A DNA stretch of 64,000 bases, from positions 3,091,001 through 3,155,000 of the forward strand of contig OY282353.1 of the NCBI GenBank assembly GCA_958295465.1, in the 5' to 3' direction. The notes under the pieces were generated by a model. That model had not been told where the DNA came from. It saw nothing but the letters and a program-made list of their open reading frames with translations, and did no database searches. This stretch comes from an uncultured Gammaproteobacteria bacterium (GTDB taxonomy: Bacteria > Pseudomonadota > Gammaproteobacteria > HK1). Made by a program: the position numbers and the translations under genes. How positions within the stretch are numbered: the stretch's first letter is position 1; each line of letters opens with the position of its first letter. Positions 49,349-63,176 of the stretch are shown piece after piece.

Positions 49349-49533
49349 GGCGCCGCTCCGATGCGGGAGCCTGAACGCGCCTATCGTAGATTCGTCCGCC
49401 CCGGCGCGCCAGCCGCCCGCCGCACCGCCACCGCCTTGCGAATCAGCCCGGAGGCTGCACCTTGCCTCCCCGTCGCCCGCAGCGGCCAGCCACAAGATCC
49501 GCAAACAAGCGACGCCCTTGGCGGAAATCGCTG

Positions 49534-49657
49534 CGTGTTGCCTGTCACGATGGATCTTCCAGCGCTGATACTGCGTGTTGGCCGCATTCCGGTTGCCGTT
49601 CTCGGCCACGTAACGCTCGATGACCTCATGGCGTTGCGCACGGCGCCCTTTCTCAAG
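49534..49657. repeat. Copy A of a 124-bp duplicated antitoxin segment
   Basis: Matches 53821-53944 in the same orientation with four substitutions in 124 bases. On the minus strand it would encode part of the antitoxin N-terminal domain (RHEVIERYVAENGNRN, QYQRWKIHRDRQH). It ends exactly where the recD-like frame begins. Confidence 0.9.
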
Positions 49658-50434
49658 TGGCGCTTCGACGAGAGGGGCGGGCTCGGGCGCTTCGCCGCCG
49701 CGGTGGTGCGCGGCGACGTCCCCGCCGCGGTCGAGGCGCTCCGGGATCCGTCCGACACCGCCGTCGAGCTGCGCCCCCTGCCCGATGCGGCGGCATTCGA
49801 ACGGCTCGCGGTGCGGTTCGCGGTTGAGTGGTTCGCGCCGGCGCTACGGAGGGCGCGAGAGCTCCGCGGCCCGCCCGACGAGGGCGTCGGGCCGTTGCCG
49901 TCGTTCCGCGTACTCTGCGCACACCGGATCGGCCCCTTCGGGGCGGAGCGCTTCAACCGGTCGGTGGAACGGCGGCTGCGCGCTCTCGGTCTCGTGCGGG
50001 CACATGACGCTTTCTATCCAGGCCGGCCGATCCTCGTCACCCGCAACGACCCGCGAACCCGGCTCTCGAACGGGGATACCGGGGTGGTTCTGCGTGATGC
50101 GGACGGGCGGGCGCAGGTCTGGTTCCCGGAGCTGGAGAACGCCGAAGGAGGGCCGCGGCTGGTCCCGCCGGCCCGCCTGCCCCCGTACGAGAGCTTCTTC
50201 GCCCTCACCGTACACCGGGCGCAGGGCTCGGAGTACGACGAGGTGGCGGTGGCGCCGGGTCCCGCCGATTCGCGGGTGGCGACCCGCGAGCTGCTCTACA
50301 CCGCGGTCACCCGGGCGCGTCGGCGGATGGTGGTGTACGGCGCCGGGGAAAGCGTCGCCGCGGCGGTCGAACGGCCCACGGAACGCTCATCGGGGTTGCG
50401 CGACGCCCTCGCGGGGGCCGCGGTCCGGGAGTAG
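49658..50434 (+). pseudogene. recD: 3' fragment of recD
   Basis: From WRFDERGGLGRFAAAV onward the plus strand reads as the C-terminal third of the exonuclease V alpha subunit, RecD. It includes PGRPILVTRNDPRTRLSNGDTG, the helicase motif ALTVHRAQGSEYDEVAV and the final motif RELLYTAVTRARRRMVVYG. The N-terminal domain and Walker A half of the helicase are absent; upstream of 49658 is antitoxin sequence read on the wrong strand. There is no credible start codon at the junction, and no recB or recC neighbours. It is a clean 5' truncation by recombination. Confidence 0.88.
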
Positions 50435-50654
50435 TGTTCCGAAGCACGGCGAGCATCGGGAGATGGTTTCTGCCGAGTCGGCAGCGCCGTATTGCATGGA
50501 GGAGTCGTGTTCGTGGGCACGGCGGGCGCCGGGAGGCGGCATGTCTCTTGACCTGGGCTCTTGGGTCTTGAGCCGATCTCTCGATGTATCGTCCCTGAGA
50601 CATGCCGCCATGAAGGAGATGTCATGCACGGCACGCCGGAAAGAGGAGCAGGGA

Positions 50655-51031: not shown

Positions 51032-51997
51032 TTATTGAAAATTTGGGAGCAAAGACGGCTGGGTATTCGGGATATGGTGGCCTACTGTTATCATATCGGC
51101 AATTTTCAGATAGGTCTTTTTTCCGATGCCATGCACCGAGATGATGCTATCAATTGTTTTGAATGGCCCCTCACCTTCGCGATGTGCTACGATTTTCTCG
51201 GCTAGTTTTGGTGTGATGCTCGGCAATGATTGCAAGGCAGCAGCGTGGGCTATATTGATATTGATGAGTGCACGGTCGGCGACAGTGATCGAGTAGTCAG
51301 CAGTTACCTCTGCAATTATAGCTGTATGGGCTTCCGTTGTGACGTCTACTGGACGTCTTCCGCTAGTATCGAGCTGTCCTCGTTTATCATCAGAATCGAA
51401 CTGGCAAATCTGCCCAATCTGCTTGCCGCGCAACAGGAAATCCGGTATGGATAGCGGCTCAACACGCTGCAAAATATCTGTCGGTTCTCTTTTTACTTGT
51501 TCCCGCAGTTCCATCAACAAACGCCCCAGAGCATTGACACCCACCAGGGTTGTATCGTCCACCGGCTTGGCACCCCAAAAATCGTCCCGCCGGGAATGTT
51601 CGACGATTGGTAAATCCCCGGTTTCAAGCAGCGCATCGCTGAATGTATCCCAATTTTGCACCAGCTTCACTTGCAGGCACCATCGCATAATCTTGACCCG
51701 AACCGCGTCCCAATCGGGACGTGAATTCTGCCGGTACGGTTTACCTTTCATCTTTGCCGTCATCGGGCTGCGCTCAGCGATAATCTTGTCCTGAATGTCC
51801 GGCAAGAGGGGAAAACGGCAGGCTTGGTACAAAGCCTCGGAGGTGCGGATGTCAACGCCGTTCACGCGTAACGGGAAGCCGCCAGCCATATTGGATAGAC
51901 CGCCGTATTTCTCTTTAGTTTTGAGGAAAACGGCGGAGTCGGTGCGGTTGTACTCCCGGATTCGGGAATTCTTGTGGTTGTCGGTCACCATAGCCAT
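51032..51997 (-). CDS. NADAR-domain protein with C-terminal helix-hairpin-helix
   Basis: NADAR (YbiA-like) domains are N-glycosidases or ADP-ribose handlers; some reverse ADP-ribosylation of guanine in DNA. Residues ~20-165 show YGGLSNMAGGFPLRVNG, the Glu in TSEALYQACRF (E54), SPMTAKMKGK and SRRDDFWGA, all expected of the family. Residues ~250-305 (LQSLPSITPKLAEKIVAHRE, IISVHGIGKKTYLKIADMI) are a paired helix-hairpin-helix, a DNA-binding module not usual in YbiA. It follows the PRTase-like gene by ten bases. The two-gene unit is distinctly A/T-rich. A DNA base-modification or defence function is an inference. Confidence 0.8.
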   Translation of the reverse strand: MAMVTDNHKNSRIREYNRTDSAVFLKTKEKYGGLSNMAGGFPLRVNGVDIRTSEALYQACRFPLLPDIQDKIIAERSPMTAKMKGKPYRQNSRPDWDAVRVKIMRWCLQVKLVQNWDTFSDALLETGDLPIVEHSRRDDFWGAKPVDDTTLVGVNALGRLLMELREQVKREPTDILQRVEPLSIPDFLLRGKQIGQICQFDSDDKRGQLDTSGRRPVDVTTEAHTAIIAEVTADYSITVADRALININIAHAAALQSLPSITPKLAEKIVAHREGEGPFKTIDSIISVHGIGKKTYLKIADMITVGHHIPNTQPSLLPNFQ

Positions 51998-52007
51998 TTT
52001 GAACAGC

Positions 52008-52952
52008 CTATTGGTGGTAGGTTTTACGTGGAAAGAGCGGGTACCAGAGACCTAAAGGATGGGTTTGTGGGTACGATGGATCGCCATACCAAAGGGCCAG
52101 CGGGCAGTTGTTGGGGCAATTTCGGTAGGTTACGAACAGAGAACCAAAGCCTGGTTCGATAGTGTTATACCCAAGCGGTTTGAGATTTGGGTCTGGATTT
52201 TTAGCGAGCCTCTGTATCTTCTTCCCCGCACTCAAAAACTCTCTTTCAAGTAATTGGCGACCTTCGACACTGGAAAAGAAACAACTCGCTCGTTGATTCT
52301 GGTCGCGCTTTCCAATTTCATCAGGGCGTAGTACGTCGGTAGGCGCAAGTCCGCCTTCTTCGTTATGCCAAGTTTGACGATTCTCGAATATATCTTTCCT
52401 ATTAAATCGCACATTGATCTGCTGCTTAATTCTATTATTGATTCTATATTCGGCATAGCTATGGCTCGCAATCAAAATAATATGCAATCGCGCCTGTCGA
52501 GGAATTCGTTCAATTATCTTTACAAGATCACCTATGACATGATCACCAGTGAACACAGCGTCATCAAGATAAACAAAATCGCCATTATCAGAGCCGTCAT
52601 ATTCTATATTAAGGTCATATCGTTCCTTCAGAATTTCACCGAACAATTTACGAATTTCGGCTTGGCTTTCGCCTTTTTTCTGGATGCTGAGGATATGCGC
52701 TGACTGCCAAAATCTGAAAGAAAATTGATCCGCTACGCCAGCAAGAAACCGGCATATTGTGGGCTGGGATACGTACGTCCGCTGGAACACGTTGTTCAGT
52801 TCGCGCAGCATTGGAACCTGCACTGCTGGCTCGAATTGACCAATCCATCGGTCAACATGGGTCGGCGTAGGCTCGGCAATTTCGCCGGTCCGGTAGTCCT
52901 TGATGGTGCTGGCGATAGAGGCCAGCAGGTCTTCACGTTCTGTCATTATCAC
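52008..52952 (-). CDS. Phosphoribosyltransferase-like protein (PRTase-CE type)
   Basis: A 314-residue protein. FVYLDDAVFTGDHVIGDL (residues 127-143) is the PRPP-binding loop of the PRTase fold (acidic pair followed by TG), preceded by a helical N-terminal domain (MLRELNNVFQRTYVSQPTI). The fold with this layout is the one described as PRTase-CE in prokaryotic conflict systems. The C-terminal ~100 residues hold FGSLFVTYRNCPNNCPLALWY, possibly a metal or nucleotide site. GTG at 52952 has AAGG five bases upstream; ATG at 52946 is nearly equivalent. It sets the start of an operon with the NADAR-HhH gene. Confidence 0.72.
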   Translation of the reverse strand: MIMTEREDLLASIASTIKDYRTGEIAEPTPTHVDRWIGQFEPAVQVPMLRELNNVFQRTYVSQPTICRFLAGVADQFSFRFWQSAHILSIQKKGESQAEIRKLFGEILKERYDLNIEYDGSDNGDFVYLDDAVFTGDHVIGDLVKIIERIPRQARLHIILIASHSYAEYRINNRIKQQINVRFNRKDIFENRQTWHNEEGGLAPTDVLRPDEIGKRDQNQRASCFFSSVEGRQLLEREFLSAGKKIQRLAKNPDPNLKPLGYNTIEPGFGSLFVTYRNCPNNCPLALWYGDPSYPQTHPLGLWYPLFPRKTYHQ

Positions 52953-53135: not shown

Positions 53136-53516
53136 TCAGCGAATCAGCTCGACCTCGACACCGAGATCGAGTGCCGCCCACGCCCGATCCGCGGTGACGA
53201 CTCCGGCCTGCTCGCGAATCGCCAAGGCCAGGCACGCGCGATCGCCGAGCGACAGGCCTCTCTCCCGCGTTGTCGTCCGTAACAGGCCGGCCGCGACGGC
53301 AAGCGCCGCGTCGAACGGCCGAATCTCCAGCCCGAAGGCAAGAAGCGAGGTACGGGCCTCCTCCCCTCCCGCTCCCAGATCGACAAGCCGCGCGATGACT
53401 TCGGAGGCGTTGACCGCAGACATGATCCCGCCGCCCAGACGGCGCGCCGCGGCATCGGCGCCTTCTTCCTCGAAGGCGATCGCGAGCAGCGCGGAGCTGT
53501 CGAAGACGACGCTCAC
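53136..53516 (-). CDS. vapC: VapC-type PIN-domain toxin
   Basis: A 126-residue PIN ribonuclease: VVFDSSALLA (first acidic residue), NASEVIARLVD, then LSLGDRACLALAIREQAGVVTADRAW (remaining acidic residues). The GTG at 53516 shares GTGA with the antitoxin stop and has GGGGAG five bases before it, which decides the start. It forms a pair with the gene upstream. Confidence 0.9.
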   Translation of the reverse strand: MSVVFDSSALLAIAFEEEGADAAARRLGGGIMSAVNASEVIARLVDLGAGGEEARTSLLAFGLEIRPFDAALAVAAGLLRTTTRERGLSLGDRACLALAIREQAGVVTADRAWAALDLGVEVELIR

Positions 53517-54061
53517 TCTTCTCCCCACATCGCCCGCCGCTCCGAGAGGAACCGATCGACGACGCTCTCGCCCGGTCTCCTGTATTTCTTCAAGCGGGAT
53601 TGGATCTGCCGGACCGCGACGGCCGGGGACACGAGACGGAGCTCTCCGGCCTCGACCCGGGCCGTCACCCGGCCGTTGTCTCCCAAGGCCATCGCCGCGC
53701 GCATTTCAAGGGGGATCAGGACCCGGCCGTCCGGGGCGATCTTGAGGGACTGCGGTTCGACCGTGCGGAGCTTTCCGGACGATGCGGGATCGCTTCCGGG
53801 CGAAGGGGGCTCGGAAATCTCGTGTTGCCTGTCACGATGGATCTTCCAGCGCTGATACTGCGTGCTGGCCGTATTCCGGTTGCCATTCTCGGCCACGTAA
53901 CGCTCGATGACCTCATGGCGTTGCGCACGACGCCCTTTCTCAAGGGTAATCGCGTCGGCGATTTCCCAGACCTGCCCGGTCCTGGTGCCGGGACCTGGCG
54001 GGACGATCAAGAACTCGGCCGCCATCCGATCGGAGGATCCGTTTGACATGTTCAGTTCCAT
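53513..54061 (-). CDS. AbrB-type antitoxin with extra N-terminal domain
   Basis: Residues ~95-155 (LKIAPDGRVLIPLEMRAAMAL) are an AbrB/MazE swapped-hairpin DNA-binding fold, and the C-terminus (SLRRAMWGEE-type tail) should bind VapC. Residues ~25-78 hold a separate small domain (GQVWEIADAITLEKGRRAQRHEVIERYV, QYQRWKIHRDRQH) that is the one duplicated at 49534. ATG at 54061 gives 182 residues, much longer than minimal antitoxins. The stop overlaps vapC. The bipartite layout suggests two DNA-contacting parts. Confidence 0.78.
   Translation of the reverse strand: MELNMSNGSSDRMAAEFLIVPPGPGTRTGQVWEIADAITLEKGRRAQRHEVIERYVAENGNRNTASTQYQRWKIHRDRQHEISEPPSPGSDPASSGKLRTVEPQSLKIAPDGRVLIPLEMRAAMALGDNGRVTARVEAGELRLVSPAVAVRQIQSRLKKYRRPGESVVDRFLSERRAMWGEE
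53821..53944. repeat. Copy B of the 124-bp duplicated segment (in the live antitoxin gene)
   Basis: Matches 49534-49657 in the same orientation with four substitutions. Encodes the extra N-terminal domain of the antitoxin, so this is the parental copy. Confidence 0.9.
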
Positions 54062-58076: not shown

Positions 58077-59447
58077 ATGCGGCGCAGCGACCTCCCTTTC
58101 GGCAGCGAGTTTTCGCCTGCCCGGATCGACCTCCCGGTCCTTCTGGAGTTGGCGCACGAACACGGAGCCGACTGGCAGGCTTTCGAGGACGCCGTCCGCG
58201 ATCGATATTTCTCGACGCATGAGACTTCCGACTACAACAAGGGCAAGCTCGCCAACAACACCAAGCTGTCCCTGCGTGCCTATGGTTTGATCGACGAGAA
58301 GGACACCACGCTCAGCGAGATCGGCCGGACGCTCTACGATCTTCGAGGCGACACTCCCGCATTGTATGAAGCCTTCGCTCGGCACATCCTGACAAACTGC
58401 CAGGGAATGAACTTTGTCCAGTGCGTCCTCGACATGCACGCCGCCGGCGAGAAGATCAACCTCAACAAGCTGCGGCACTGGCTCCAGGAACGCGGCATCA
58501 CCGTCCCGCGCGGCGGGAAACACATGAGTACGTTGCGCTTGTGGCTCGAAAAACCCGGTGTCTTCGTCTCCCGTTACCGCGTGGATCAGACGCGCCTCAA
58601 TCGGATTCTCGGTCTCGACGTGGAGGAATTCGAGGCACTTGCCACCTTTACCTCGGAACAGCGCGCCTATCTCAAGGCCATCGCCAATCTGGACAGTGAC
58701 GGCCCGCATCTCTCGAACGACGTCGAGAAACTCGCCGTCGCCACCTACGGCGTCACCTTCAACGAAAAGAATCTGCCCAAGCAGGTGCTCTATCCACTTC
58801 AGGACGCCGGATACCTCCATCTCGAACGCGGAACCAGGGAAGCCGGTCGTGGGGCAAAGCCGTTTCTGGTGACCGCCACCGACAAGCTGGCGAACGACAT
58901 CGTCACACCGTTGATCGAACAGATCGAGAAACAGACCCGGACCGATTTGCGGCCGATGTTGCGCAAATCCCTCAAGGCGATCCGTGAGGAGGTCGAATCA
59001 GGGAATCGCCACATCCGGGGTCTTGCTCTCGAAGCCCTTGCCTTCAAGCTCATGCGCCTTGTCGATTTGACCTACGTGGCCACCCGCCTGCGCGGGGACG
59101 TGACCGGAGGAGCAGAAGTCGATCTGATTTTCGAGAGCGCGCGACTCGTATTTTCCCGCTGGCAGGTCCAGTGCAAGAACACCGCCCGCGTGTCGCTCGA
59201 CGACGTAGCCAAGGAGGTCGGACTCACGCATTTCCTCAAAAGCAACGCCATCGTCATGATCTCGACCGGCAGGATCGGCAATGAGGCCCGCCGCTACGCC
59301 AACAGGATCATGGCCGATTCCAACCTTTGCATCATCATGGTGGACGGCGACGATCTTGCTCTTATAGAGATCAAGCCGGCTGCGATCGTCGATGTGTTCG
59401 CCCGGGAGGCCCGCCACGCCATGGATCTGAAAGAACTCTCTTTATAG
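58077..59447 (+). CDS. Type II restriction endonuclease, Mrr-like C-terminal nuclease
   Basis: A 456-residue protein. The N-terminal two thirds are helical with no known fold (RYFSTHETSDYNKGKLANNTKLSLRAYGLI is like restriction proteins of this type). Residues ~300-400 give a Mrr/PD-(D/E)XK core: GLALEALAFKLMRLVDL, then GAEVDLIFES and WQVQCKNT. It is followed ten bases later by a cytosine/adenine methylase, the typical order of a two-gene type II system. The target site is unknown. Confidence 0.82.
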   Translation: MRRSDLPFGSEFSPARIDLPVLLELAHEHGADWQAFEDAVRDRYFSTHETSDYNKGKLANNTKLSLRAYGLIDEKDTTLSEIGRTLYDLRGDTPALYEAFARHILTNCQGMNFVQCVLDMHAAGEKINLNKLRHWLQERGITVPRGGKHMSTLRLWLEKPGVFVSRYRVDQTRLNRILGLDVEEFEALATFTSEQRAYLKAIANLDSDGPHLSNDVEKLAVATYGVTFNEKNLPKQVLYPLQDAGYLHLERGTREAGRGAKPFLVTATDKLANDIVTPLIEQIEKQTRTDLRPMLRKSLKAIREEVESGNRHIRGLALEALAFKLMRLVDLTYVATRLRGDVTGGAEVDLIFESARLVFSRWQVQCKNTARVSLDDVAKEVGLTHFLKSNAIVMISTGRIGNEARRYANRIMADSNLCIIMVDGDDLALIEIKPAAIVDVFAREARHAMDLKELSL

Positions 59448-59456
59448 GAAAATACA

Positions 59457-60602
59457 GTGTCGAAAAAAACGACATCGGACTTCAGAACCTTCCACGAAAC
59501 GTCCCTCGGCCGGATCATCCACGGTGACAGCGTGGACGTGCTTGCTGCCTGTGCGGACGATTCGGTCGATCTGATCATGACGAGCCCGCCTTTCGGGCTG
59601 GTCCGCAAGAAGGATTACGGCAACGTCGATGCGGACGAATACGTCGATTGGTTCAGACCCTTTGCCGCCGCATTCCACCGTGTCATGAAGGGCGACGCCA
59701 GCTTGGTCATCGACATCGGGGGCGCATGGAACAAGGGCTATCCCACCAGGAACCTCTATCACTTCAAACTCCTGATCATGCTGTGCGAGGAGGTCGGATT
59801 CCATCTGGCACAGGATTTCTACTGGTGGAATCCTTCCAAATTGCCGACACCCGCAGAATGGGTGACGGTGCGCCGCATCCGGGTCAAGGACGCGATCAAT
59901 ACCGTATGGTGGCTATCGAAGACACCTTGGCCGAAGGCGAGCAATCGCAGGGTCCTCCAACCCTACAGCCCCAGTATGCAGGAGTTGCTGGCCAAGGGCT
60001 ACAAGGCGAAGAAACGCCCGTCCGGTCACGACATCAGTGACAAGTTCAACGTTGACAATGGCGCGGCGATTCCGCCCAACCTGATTGCGATTCCGAATAC
60101 GGAGAGCAACAGCTTCTATCTTCGTTATTGCGAAGAAAAAGGTCTCAAGCCGCACCCTGCCCGCTATCCGGCCGAGCTGCCCGAATACTTTATCCGTATG
60201 CTGACCGATTCCGGCGATCTCGTGATCGATCCTTTCGCCGGGAGTTGCGTCACCGGCGAGGTTTGTGAACGCACCATGCGCCGTTGGGTCTGCATCGAGC
60301 TTCTTCACGATTATTGCGAGGCCGCCCTTGGCCGCTTTGTCCGCGATCCTCGAACGACGACCAAATCCGTCGTCAATCCCGAGGAGCCGTCCAACTATTA
60401 TCGCCTGCCGCGCCCCGGCATCCTGTGGAACGGGGAGAACGGCGATCTGCTGCCGGAGGACGGCGGCAGGCATCGACGCCCGAAGCCGAAGGAGAGCCGG
60501 ACCGCGGAATCGGAAAATGCGAAGCTGGTTCCTGTCGATTACAACGCAATTTCCGGCTCGGCTGGAGCCTCCTCAAGGCAGGGAGAGCTGGATTATCGGT
60601 GA
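59457..60602 (+). CDS. DNA methyltransferase (beta-class, N4-cytosine-like)
   Basis: Motif IV TSPPFGL near residue 43 and motif I DPFAGSCVTGEV near residue 260 give the permuted beta-class order; TSPPF is typical of N4-cytosine methylases. The middle (LPTPAEWVTVRRIRVKDAINTVWWLSKT) is also typical. GTG start at 59457, AGGA nine bases before it. It partners the restriction enzyme at 58077. The C-terminal ~60 residues (GGRHRRPKPKESRTAESENAK) are polar and disordered. Confidence 0.9.
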   Translation: MSKKTTSDFRTFHETSLGRIIHGDSVDVLAACADDSVDLIMTSPPFGLVRKKDYGNVDADEYVDWFRPFAAAFHRVMKGDASLVIDIGGAWNKGYPTRNLYHFKLLIMLCEEVGFHLAQDFYWWNPSKLPTPAEWVTVRRIRVKDAINTVWWLSKTPWPKASNRRVLQPYSPSMQELLAKGYKAKKRPSGHDISDKFNVDNGAAIPPNLIAIPNTESNSFYLRYCEEKGLKPHPARYPAELPEYFIRMLTDSGDLVIDPFAGSCVTGEVCERTMRRWVCIELLHDYCEAALGRFVRDPRTTTKSVVNPEEPSNYYRLPRPGILWNGENGDLLPEDGGRHRRPKPKESRTAESENAKLVPVDYNAISGSAGASSRQGELDYR

Positions 60603-62544: not shown

Positions 62545-62657
62545 GGGCGTGAACGCGCTACCGAGAGTCGATCGAACGGATCGGCCAAATGGACCGCGAA
62601 GAAGGAATCGGCACGACACCGGCGGGCAAGGACACGGCAGAACCGGAGAATCGTCAC

Positions 62658-63176
62658 ATGACCCAACCAAACTCGCCGCAATCCGTGCACAGCGAGCAAT
62701 CTTCCTATCGCAAGTTCATCATTGAACATCTGTTTACAGGCGAACTGCTCCGCACTCTCTGGCCTCGTCGCGCCGAGGTGATGAAACCGCAAGTCGACGA
62801 CGGAGGCTACGATCTTGTCGTGGAAGTCGAGGGCATCGTTCGCCATATCCGGCTCAAGACCTCGAAGCGGGCCGCGAAAACGGCACGACAGAACGTTCAC
62901 CTGCGCTTACAGGAAAAACCCAGTGGCTGTGTGATATGGATTCAATTCGACGAACGCAATTTCGACCTGGGACCATTTCTATGGTTTGGGAGTCCTCCCG
63001 ACGAACCTCTTCCCTGCCTCTCCGATATGAGGATCGCTCGCCATACCAAGGGCGATGCGACCGGGGAAAAATCGGAACGACCCGCGCACCGCGAAATTAC
63101 CAAGGGACGATTCAAGAAACTGGAAAACATCACCGAGGTCGTCGAGCATTTGTTCGGTTCCCGGCAAGCGCGTTGA
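62658..63176 (+). CDS. PD-(D/E)XK-like protein of unknown function
   Basis: ATG at 62658 after GGAGAA; 172 residues. FIIEHLFTGELLRTLWPR, VDDGGYDLVVEVEGIVRHIRLKTSK has an Asp, then hydrophobic strands ending in L-K, the spacing seen in restriction-nuclease folds. The C-terminus (REITKGRFKKLENITEVVEHLF) is typical of small HTH-lacking nuclease-like proteins near restriction loci. Overlaps the end of the decayed helicase on the other strand. An active nuclease is uncertain. Confidence 0.6.
   Translation: MTQPNSPQSVHSEQSSYRKFIIEHLFTGELLRTLWPRRAEVMKPQVDDGGYDLVVEVEGIVRHIRLKTSKRAAKTARQNVHLRLQEKPSGCVIWIQFDERNFDLGPFLWFGSPPDEPLPCLSDMRIARHTKGDATGEKSERPAHREITKGRFKKLENITEVVEHLFGSRQAR

Follow-up and report, generated by a model that had tools for sequence, protein, structure and literature searches.

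An HhH-tailed variant of the DS-32 antiphage pair, PRTase and NADAR, and the ties of its relatives to restriction-modification

The window, a stretch of 64,000 nucleotides from an uncultured Gammaproteobacteria bacterium (contig OY282353.1, positions 3,091,001 to 3,155,000 of the forward strand), carries a two-gene operon that is a new DNA-binding, HhH-tailed form of DS-32, a rare and recently named antiphage family. The first protein scored 292.7 bits against NCBIfam NF053875 (DS32_1_antiphage, cut-off 250) and the second 285.2 bits against NF053876 (DS32_2_antiphage, cut-off 240). Because both equivalog cut-offs are passed, the pair is, on sequence, near certain to belong to DS-32. The arrangement is also that of the family, with two adjacent co-directional genes and the PRTase first, in an order identical to that in E. 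coli. The original prediction described this operon correctly, since both ORFs were confirmed by Pfam matches and coordinates. It was silent on the strand, which is minus for both ORFs, and its spacing of ten bases is exact, with the two genes on the same strand. Its assignment of the pair to defence is supported, the family being a named one in which members have been validated as defence systems. The same name disposes of its statement that no named system contains this pair, and the candidate of an unnamed new system was rejected. The features of the pair are:

52008 to 52946, minus strand: DS-32 first gene, encoding a PRTase-CE protein of 312 aa (PF24390, NF053875, structural model)
52545 to 52565, minus strand: predicted PRPP-binding-loop motif DDAVFTG, residues 128-134, with D128, D129 and G134 invariant in 30 relatives
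51032 to 51997, minus strand: DS-32 second gene, encoding NADAR with a C-terminal HhH extension, 321 aa (Pfam NADAR and HHH_3, NF053876)
51494 to 51928, minus strand: NADAR domain, aa 24-168, with catalytic-type residues E54, R61, K82, W96, R100, E133, D138 and W141 (Pfam and residue mapping)
51086 to 51268, minus strand: ComEA-like HhH DNA-binding module, aa 244-304 (HHH_3, 63.9 bits; Foldseek matches to 8dss ComEA and to Tex)
51047 to 51061, minus strand: C-terminal QPSLL, aa 313-317, a sliding-clamp-binding-like QxxL[FLI] (tail motif, present in 14 of 26 clusters)

DS numbers are those of the DefensePredictor systems (DeWeirdt, Mahoney and Laub, Science 2026, PMC13092281). As far as that paper was available, it reports 42 plasmid-cloned transcription units that gave E. 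coli MG1655 protection from part of a panel of 24 phages; PRTase is listed in the legend to its Fig. 4 and NADAR domains are mentioned in its text. The identification of DS-32 with the PRTase and NADAR pair comes from the NCBIfam naming together with this legend. No mechanism for the pair was found in the available part of the main text, and searches of the literature found neither a published mechanism for DS-32 nor a paper on PRTase-CE.

The E. coli version (L028, WP_021548563.1 and WP_000122138.1) lies inside a lambdoid prophage, with replication gene P on one side and ninE on the other, passes both DS-32 cut-offs and has no restriction-modification genes beside it. It shares with the window pair the two families, the gene order and a spacing of a few bases, whereas its NADAR protein has 203 aa and no HhH, compared with 321 aa and HhH in the window, and the two PRTases are only 31% identical. 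As the E. coli system has no DNA-binding domain at all, such a domain is not essential. At least 80% of E. coli DS-32 was present in 43 of 5,426 complete E. coli genomes. Inactivated copies of the E. coli PRTase gene were also seen, one cut off beside IS1 (L065, NZ_OW968011.1) and one split by ISKpn26 (H59, NZ_CP122823.1). Carriage of DS-32 by phages was tried as a candidate: INPHARED phage records contained no match to protein P0002 or to the E. coli pair, yet the E. coli copy is in a prophage, and on one IMG/VR contig (L040) the pair lies among ORFs that by eye resemble phage tail and baseplate genes and run on the opposite strand.

Alignment with relatives makes the ATG at 52946 the more likely start of the PRTase gene, the in-frame GTG upstream at 52952 being the alternative. 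The product matched PRTase-CE (PF24390) with 158 bits. An alignment of 30 PRTases, drawn from several phyla, showed no change at D128, D129 and G134 in the PRPP loop (DDxx[FY][ST]G), nor at Q89, S94, Q95, R275, N276 and N279. Two of these residues had been singled out in the original prediction as D130/D131, which are D128/D129 when counted from the ATG instead of the GTG; they and E54 of NADAR, also named there, proved invariant. An AlphaFold model of the protein (pLDDT 84) matched uracil, orotate and hypoxanthine-guanine phosphoribosyltransferases and PyrR with Z of about 9-10. With VIA-align the best Z was 10.4, and the PRTase fold was present in all of the best 50 rows, which comprised phosphoribosyltransferases, PyrR, PRPP synthetases and their associated proteins. 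As modelled, the protein thus has a type I phosphoribosyltransferase fold with a conserved PRPP loop. An intact loop is no proof of transferase activity, PyrR being mainly a regulator. PADLOC models for the PRTase of type III-A retrons (PRTase_III-A) also matched the window protein (E = 2.5e-11); unlike in those retrons, the partner here is NADAR, and no reverse transcriptase was seen at the loci whose genes were inspected.

In the second protein, Pfam detected NADAR with 90 bits and HHH_3 at the position given above, with a linker at about 207-241 of low model confidence. Its AlphaFold model matched YbiA, the ADP-ribose-bound NADAR 8BAU and ComEA. E54, R61, K82, W96, E133, D138 and W141 were invariant in the NADAR alignment, and R100 fits the pattern in most rows. 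Mapped by hand from residue spacing on to the ADP-ribose-bound NADAR of PMC11543638, E54, R61, K82, W96, E133, D138, W141 and R100 correspond to E43, K50, K75, W89, E125, D130, W133 and R93. The predicted N-glycosidase site is therefore present, with its catalytic Glu pair, a basic phosphate-binding residue and the Trp and Asp of the ADP-ribose site. Among characterised NADARs, YbiA hydrolyses the N-glycosidic bond in riboflavin intermediates, and that of DarT1-NADAR releases ADP-ribose from guanine (PMC11543638). The Glu at E133, in place of the Asp of the BC4488 type, makes the window protein a NADAR of the YbiA type. R61 stands where characterised DarT1 NADARs have lysine; a K-to-R change of that lysine in a DarT1 NADAR left in vitro activity intact (PMC11543638).

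The likeness to E. coli YbiA (RibX), a riboflavin-intermediate N-glycosidase, extends to the NADAR fold, 35% identity and an equivalent catalytic Glu. With 77.1 bits the window protein also clears the cut-off of 73.7 set for TIGR02464, a riboflavin N-glycosidase model, and its HhH is ComEA-like, as might be expected of a metabolic or DNA-repair pair engaged in clean-up of riboflavin intermediates or ComEA-like DNA handling and having no part in defence. We consider such a role very improbable. The DS32_2 score is far higher, at 285 bits; YbiA differs from the window protein in operon partner, C-terminal module and DS-32-specific sequence; and the patchy distribution (9 in approximately 1,694 genomes), the A/T-rich insertion and the prophage, plasmid and restriction-modification settings all speak against it.

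The original prediction had proposed a neighbourhood survey for co-occurrence, and this found the two genes together almost throughout. The sample consisted of about 31 loci, a small number, many of them from metagenome-assembled genomes. Eighteen relatives were reached from NADAR; L013 ends at a contig edge before the position of the PRTase, and among the remaining 17 the PRTase lay directly upstream of NADAR in 16, the exception being a Variovorax locus (L019). A search with the PRTase alone yielded nine non-query genomes above the cut-off in approximately 1,694 (about 0.5%), and in all nine a NADAR gene adjoined the PRTase. NADAR without PRTase was seen in L019 and in a Vibrio locus (L021). 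Thus the PRTase was always accompanied by NADAR while NADAR was sometimes alone, an asymmetry that fits a PRTase toxin with a NADAR antidote.

Several loci had further genes nearby. In the Vibrio parahaemolyticus locus (L021:5132-6627) the partner of the DS-32-like NADAR, which falls short of the DS32_2 cut-off, is a Dam-family DNA methylase in place of the PRTase. Upstream of the pair in a Chloroflexota locus (L002:3474-4946) is a radical-SAM protein with HhH motifs like those in the neighbouring NADAR tail, and an ORF resembling it precedes the pair in L003. Two Lysobacteraceae (L015:4114-4941 and L016:4121-4948) have a gene of about 275 aa before the pair, 98% conserved and DinD-like by eye; the L016 gene gave no Pfam match.

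In the window the pair lies in a segment of 42-54% GC within a region of about 70%, as the original prediction of A/T-richness had it. Of the two neighbours then named as a defence-island setting, the VapC-like PIN gene (53136-53528) stands; the truncated recD does not count as a meaningful neighbour, being a partial copy of a gene that is intact elsewhere. The bordering features are:

49654 to 50489, plus strand: incomplete second copy of recD, from the 3' part of the gene, 96% identical over 836 bp
49534 to 49657, no strand assigned: left copy of a 124-bp direct repeat bordering the inserted segment, 97% identical to the right copy
53821 to 53944, no strand assigned: right copy of the repeat, 97% identical to the left copy, within a putative antitoxin gene (53513-54061)

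The intact recD encodes 703 aa at genome positions 3,056,073-3,058,184 (G000; L061:3074-5185), 83 kb upstream of the window copy, and the idea that the truncated gene marks a disrupted RecBCD was therefore rejected. A second copied piece of 112 bp (49423-49534) derives from just downstream of the intact recD. With both pieces copied, the left flank is a mosaic. Between the repeats lie the recD copy, DS-32 and VapC. Further along are a lower-GC restriction-modification pair at 58077-60602, in which an Mrr-cat endonuclease of 456 aa is accompanied by a type II DNA methylase (PADLOC PDLC03323, 393 bits), and a weak PD-(D/E)XK match at 62589-63176. An RloB-family gene (PF13707, 110 bits), possibly another defence gene, lies 6 bases beyond the window end (L063:14107-14730). 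Together with VapC these predicted genes form a defence-rich neighbourhood.

Relatives of the pair carry different DNA-related modules on NADAR. HhH tails were found in the window protein and in two Chloroflexota proteins. In four type I restriction-modification operons (L051, L041, L042 and L062) the order is HsdM, PRTase, NADAR::HsdS, HsdR, with a GmrSD-like gene after HsdM in one and a small gene before HsdR in two; by PADLOC profiles the fused HsdS is full length. In three others (L048, L049 and L050) it is HmaA, PRTase, NADAR::HmaB, HmaC, as established by profile throughout for L048, in part for L050 and by similarity to L048 for L049, and the fused part is a full HmaB methylase. The Hma-type gene order is kept in L046 and L047 with NADAR and HmaB unfused. 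These fusions are known as ORFs, from several independent contigs. The window pair, in contrast, is free-standing and HhH-tailed. Five of the nine loci reached through the PRTase alone were of the type I (HsdS) or Hma kind. On the PRTase tree, the well-supported branches require the HsdS association to have changed three times or more, and the Hma association likewise; both have therefore been gained or lost repeatedly. Hma, a type-1 BR (BREX-related) system, has been described with three components, PRTase and NADAR not among them (PMC8565338). Neither is mentioned in PMC12839542, a survey of BREX-related systems published in 2026 in which Hma is discussed, and literature searches for NADAR with HsdS, DUF1156 or BREX gave nothing relevant among the matches listed. 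In L042 a gene between NADAR::HsdS and HsdR (L042:4796-5404) matches the C-terminal region of DarG (PADLOC PDLC02990, 182 bits) and has no macrodomain match; as far as this match goes, it is another tie to DNA ADP-ribosylation systems.

Because relatives have repeatedly been built into restriction-modification machinery, the DS-32 mechanism is suggested to act on DNA, and it is likely that the pair acts on or at DNA. About one-third of the studied loci sit within type I or Hma operons and a restriction-modification pair is near in the window. The pair could accordingly be an add-on serving host restriction, for example by relieving phage DNA protection or self-restriction, and no separate effector, with free-standing pairs using restriction-modification enzymes in trans, for example, in the window, those of the Mrr/methylase pair at a distance of 5 kb. 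We regard this as improbable: DS-n systems were active as isolated cloned units in MG1655, according to the part of the DefensePredictor paper available (PMC13092281), and the E. coli locus is in a prophage with no adjoining restriction-modification genes. Action on small molecules is unlikely too. On infection the PRTase would in that case drain or divert PRPP, nucleotides or an ADP-ribose derivative, or make a nucleotide signal, and NADAR would hydrolyse the product and limit damage. The nearest folds to the PRTase are nucleotide-salvage phosphoribosyltransferases, the substrates of YbiA are small riboflavin intermediates (PMC11543638), and Aravind and co-workers argue that the targets of phage NADARs are mostly ADP-ribose derivatives of low molecular weight (PMC9503650); however, the attachment of HsdS, HmaB, HhH and the clamp-like motif to NADAR, and its position in restriction-modification operons, would then go unexplained.

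This clamp-like motif, Q-x-x-[LM]-[FLI], occurred in 14 of 26 NADAR clusters (80% identity), in the last 30 residues or in the linker before a fused domain. Composition shuffles gave a mean of 0.74 clusters and at most 6 in 5,000 shuffles, for a motif that had been noticed before its enrichment was tested. The forms include QLSLL, QGSLF, QPSLF and QMELF, the window protein having QPSLL near its end and the E. coli NADAR a six-residue form, QSLSLF. None of nine non-DS-32 NADARs found by profile had the motif, and these have practically no tail. We take the QxxL[FLI] motif of the tail to resemble bacterial sliding-clamp-binding motifs and regard it as a putative element of that kind; a docking site for the PRTase would explain it too. 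Taken together, this motif, the HhH tail and the joining of NADAR to HsdS and HmaB connect the pair with DNA more strongly than the original prediction supposed.

The core of the PRTase is far more variable than its neighbours. Between L046 and L047, HmaA, NADAR and HmaB are 92-95% identical, with third codon positions at 84-88%. Residues 51-300 of the PRTase show 33-48% identity, and their third codon positions, at 36-43%, are saturated; similarity is retained over the first 50 residues and at the extreme end. Other pairs of loci behaved likewise: L004/L005 (NADAR 84%, PRTase core 40-66%), L015/L016 (upstream gene 98%, NADAR 91%, PRTase 60%), L048/L049 (HmaA 91%, PRTase 52%) and the E. coli alleles (NADAR 85%, PRTase 52%), where the upstream gene also diverges. 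L037/L045 was an exception (91% versus 93%). Matches in blastn break off inside the PRTase gene. The simplest reading of these alignments is that the core has been replaced by recombination, which would make the PRTase the partner that faces the phage or determines specificity, with the chemistry of NADAR fixed. A conserved NADAR beside a variable PRTase is also more in keeping with an antidote that works as an enzyme than with an antitoxin that works by binding protein.

A PRTase that acts as a sensor fits the hypervariable core equally well, and this is the main rival, one that we find rather doubtful. The PRTase would sense a phage product or a change in nucleotides, as PyrR senses UMP/UTP, and the freed NADAR N-glycosidase would be the effector, steered to DNA by HsdS, HmaB, HhH or clamp and there removing or damaging bases or stripping protective modifications from phage DNA. 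Such a division of labour would account for hypervariability next to a conserved NADAR and for DNA-targeting modules on NADAR and none on the PRTase; the proteins that resemble the PRTase in structure include PyrR regulators, and restriction glycosylases, in the available part of PMC10273834, are a precedent for a glycosidase as restriction effector. However, a PRTase never found without NADAR, and NADAR found without PRTase in L019 and L021, is the opposite of what a sensor-dependent effector predicts, and known NADARs remove adducts, attack on unmodified DNA being unreported.

We rank above it, still tentatively, a mechanism in which the PRTase attaches a group of phosphoribosyl type to nucleic acid and a DNA-held NADAR removes that group from self. 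The PRTase would be the active, phage-facing component, using PRPP or a similar 5-phosphoribosyl donor on infection; the ribosyl-phosphate group would go onto a base amine in DNA or nucleotides, and replication would stop. NADAR would be the conserved eraser, held at DNA by HhH, HsdS, HmaB or the sliding clamp and stripping the group from the cell's own DNA. Addition and removal of a ribose mark, as proposed in the original prediction, is chemically plausible because the active sites are conserved. The scheme would be an enzymatic toxin-antitoxin one as in DarT1-NADAR (DarTG1), with the PRTase replacing the ADP-ribosyltransferase. The two systems have in common a NADAR eraser with a conserved active site beside a nucleotide-transferring enzyme. 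In DarT1-NADAR, however, that enzyme is an NAD-dependent ADP-ribosyltransferase, whereas the window partner is PRTase-CE and no ADP-ribosyltransferase toxin is present in the operon, which is thus not a member of that family. Against the mechanism stand R61, in place of the DarT1-NADAR lysine, and the fit of the variable core to a sensor role.

The constant company of NADAR for the PRTase, with conserved active sites in both, the exchangeable modules on NADAR, the clamp-like motif and the hypervariability of the PRTase appear to be previously undescribed. A broader and more speculative reading, on balance unlikely, sees in PRTase-NADAR an exchangeable effector cassette, used by restriction and BREX-related systems, that would both write a phosphoribosyl mark on DNA and erase it. 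The target would be set by the variable core of the PRTase, and self DNA would be protected by a NADAR that HsdS, HmaB, HhH or the replication clamp puts in place. If true, this would be restriction through base ribosylation instead of cutting. The fusions, the clamp-like motif and the hypervariable core turn a mystery pair into a testable hypothesis, that of reversible DNA base ribosylation coupled to restriction-modification, and the results point to residues, parts and homologues worth testing.
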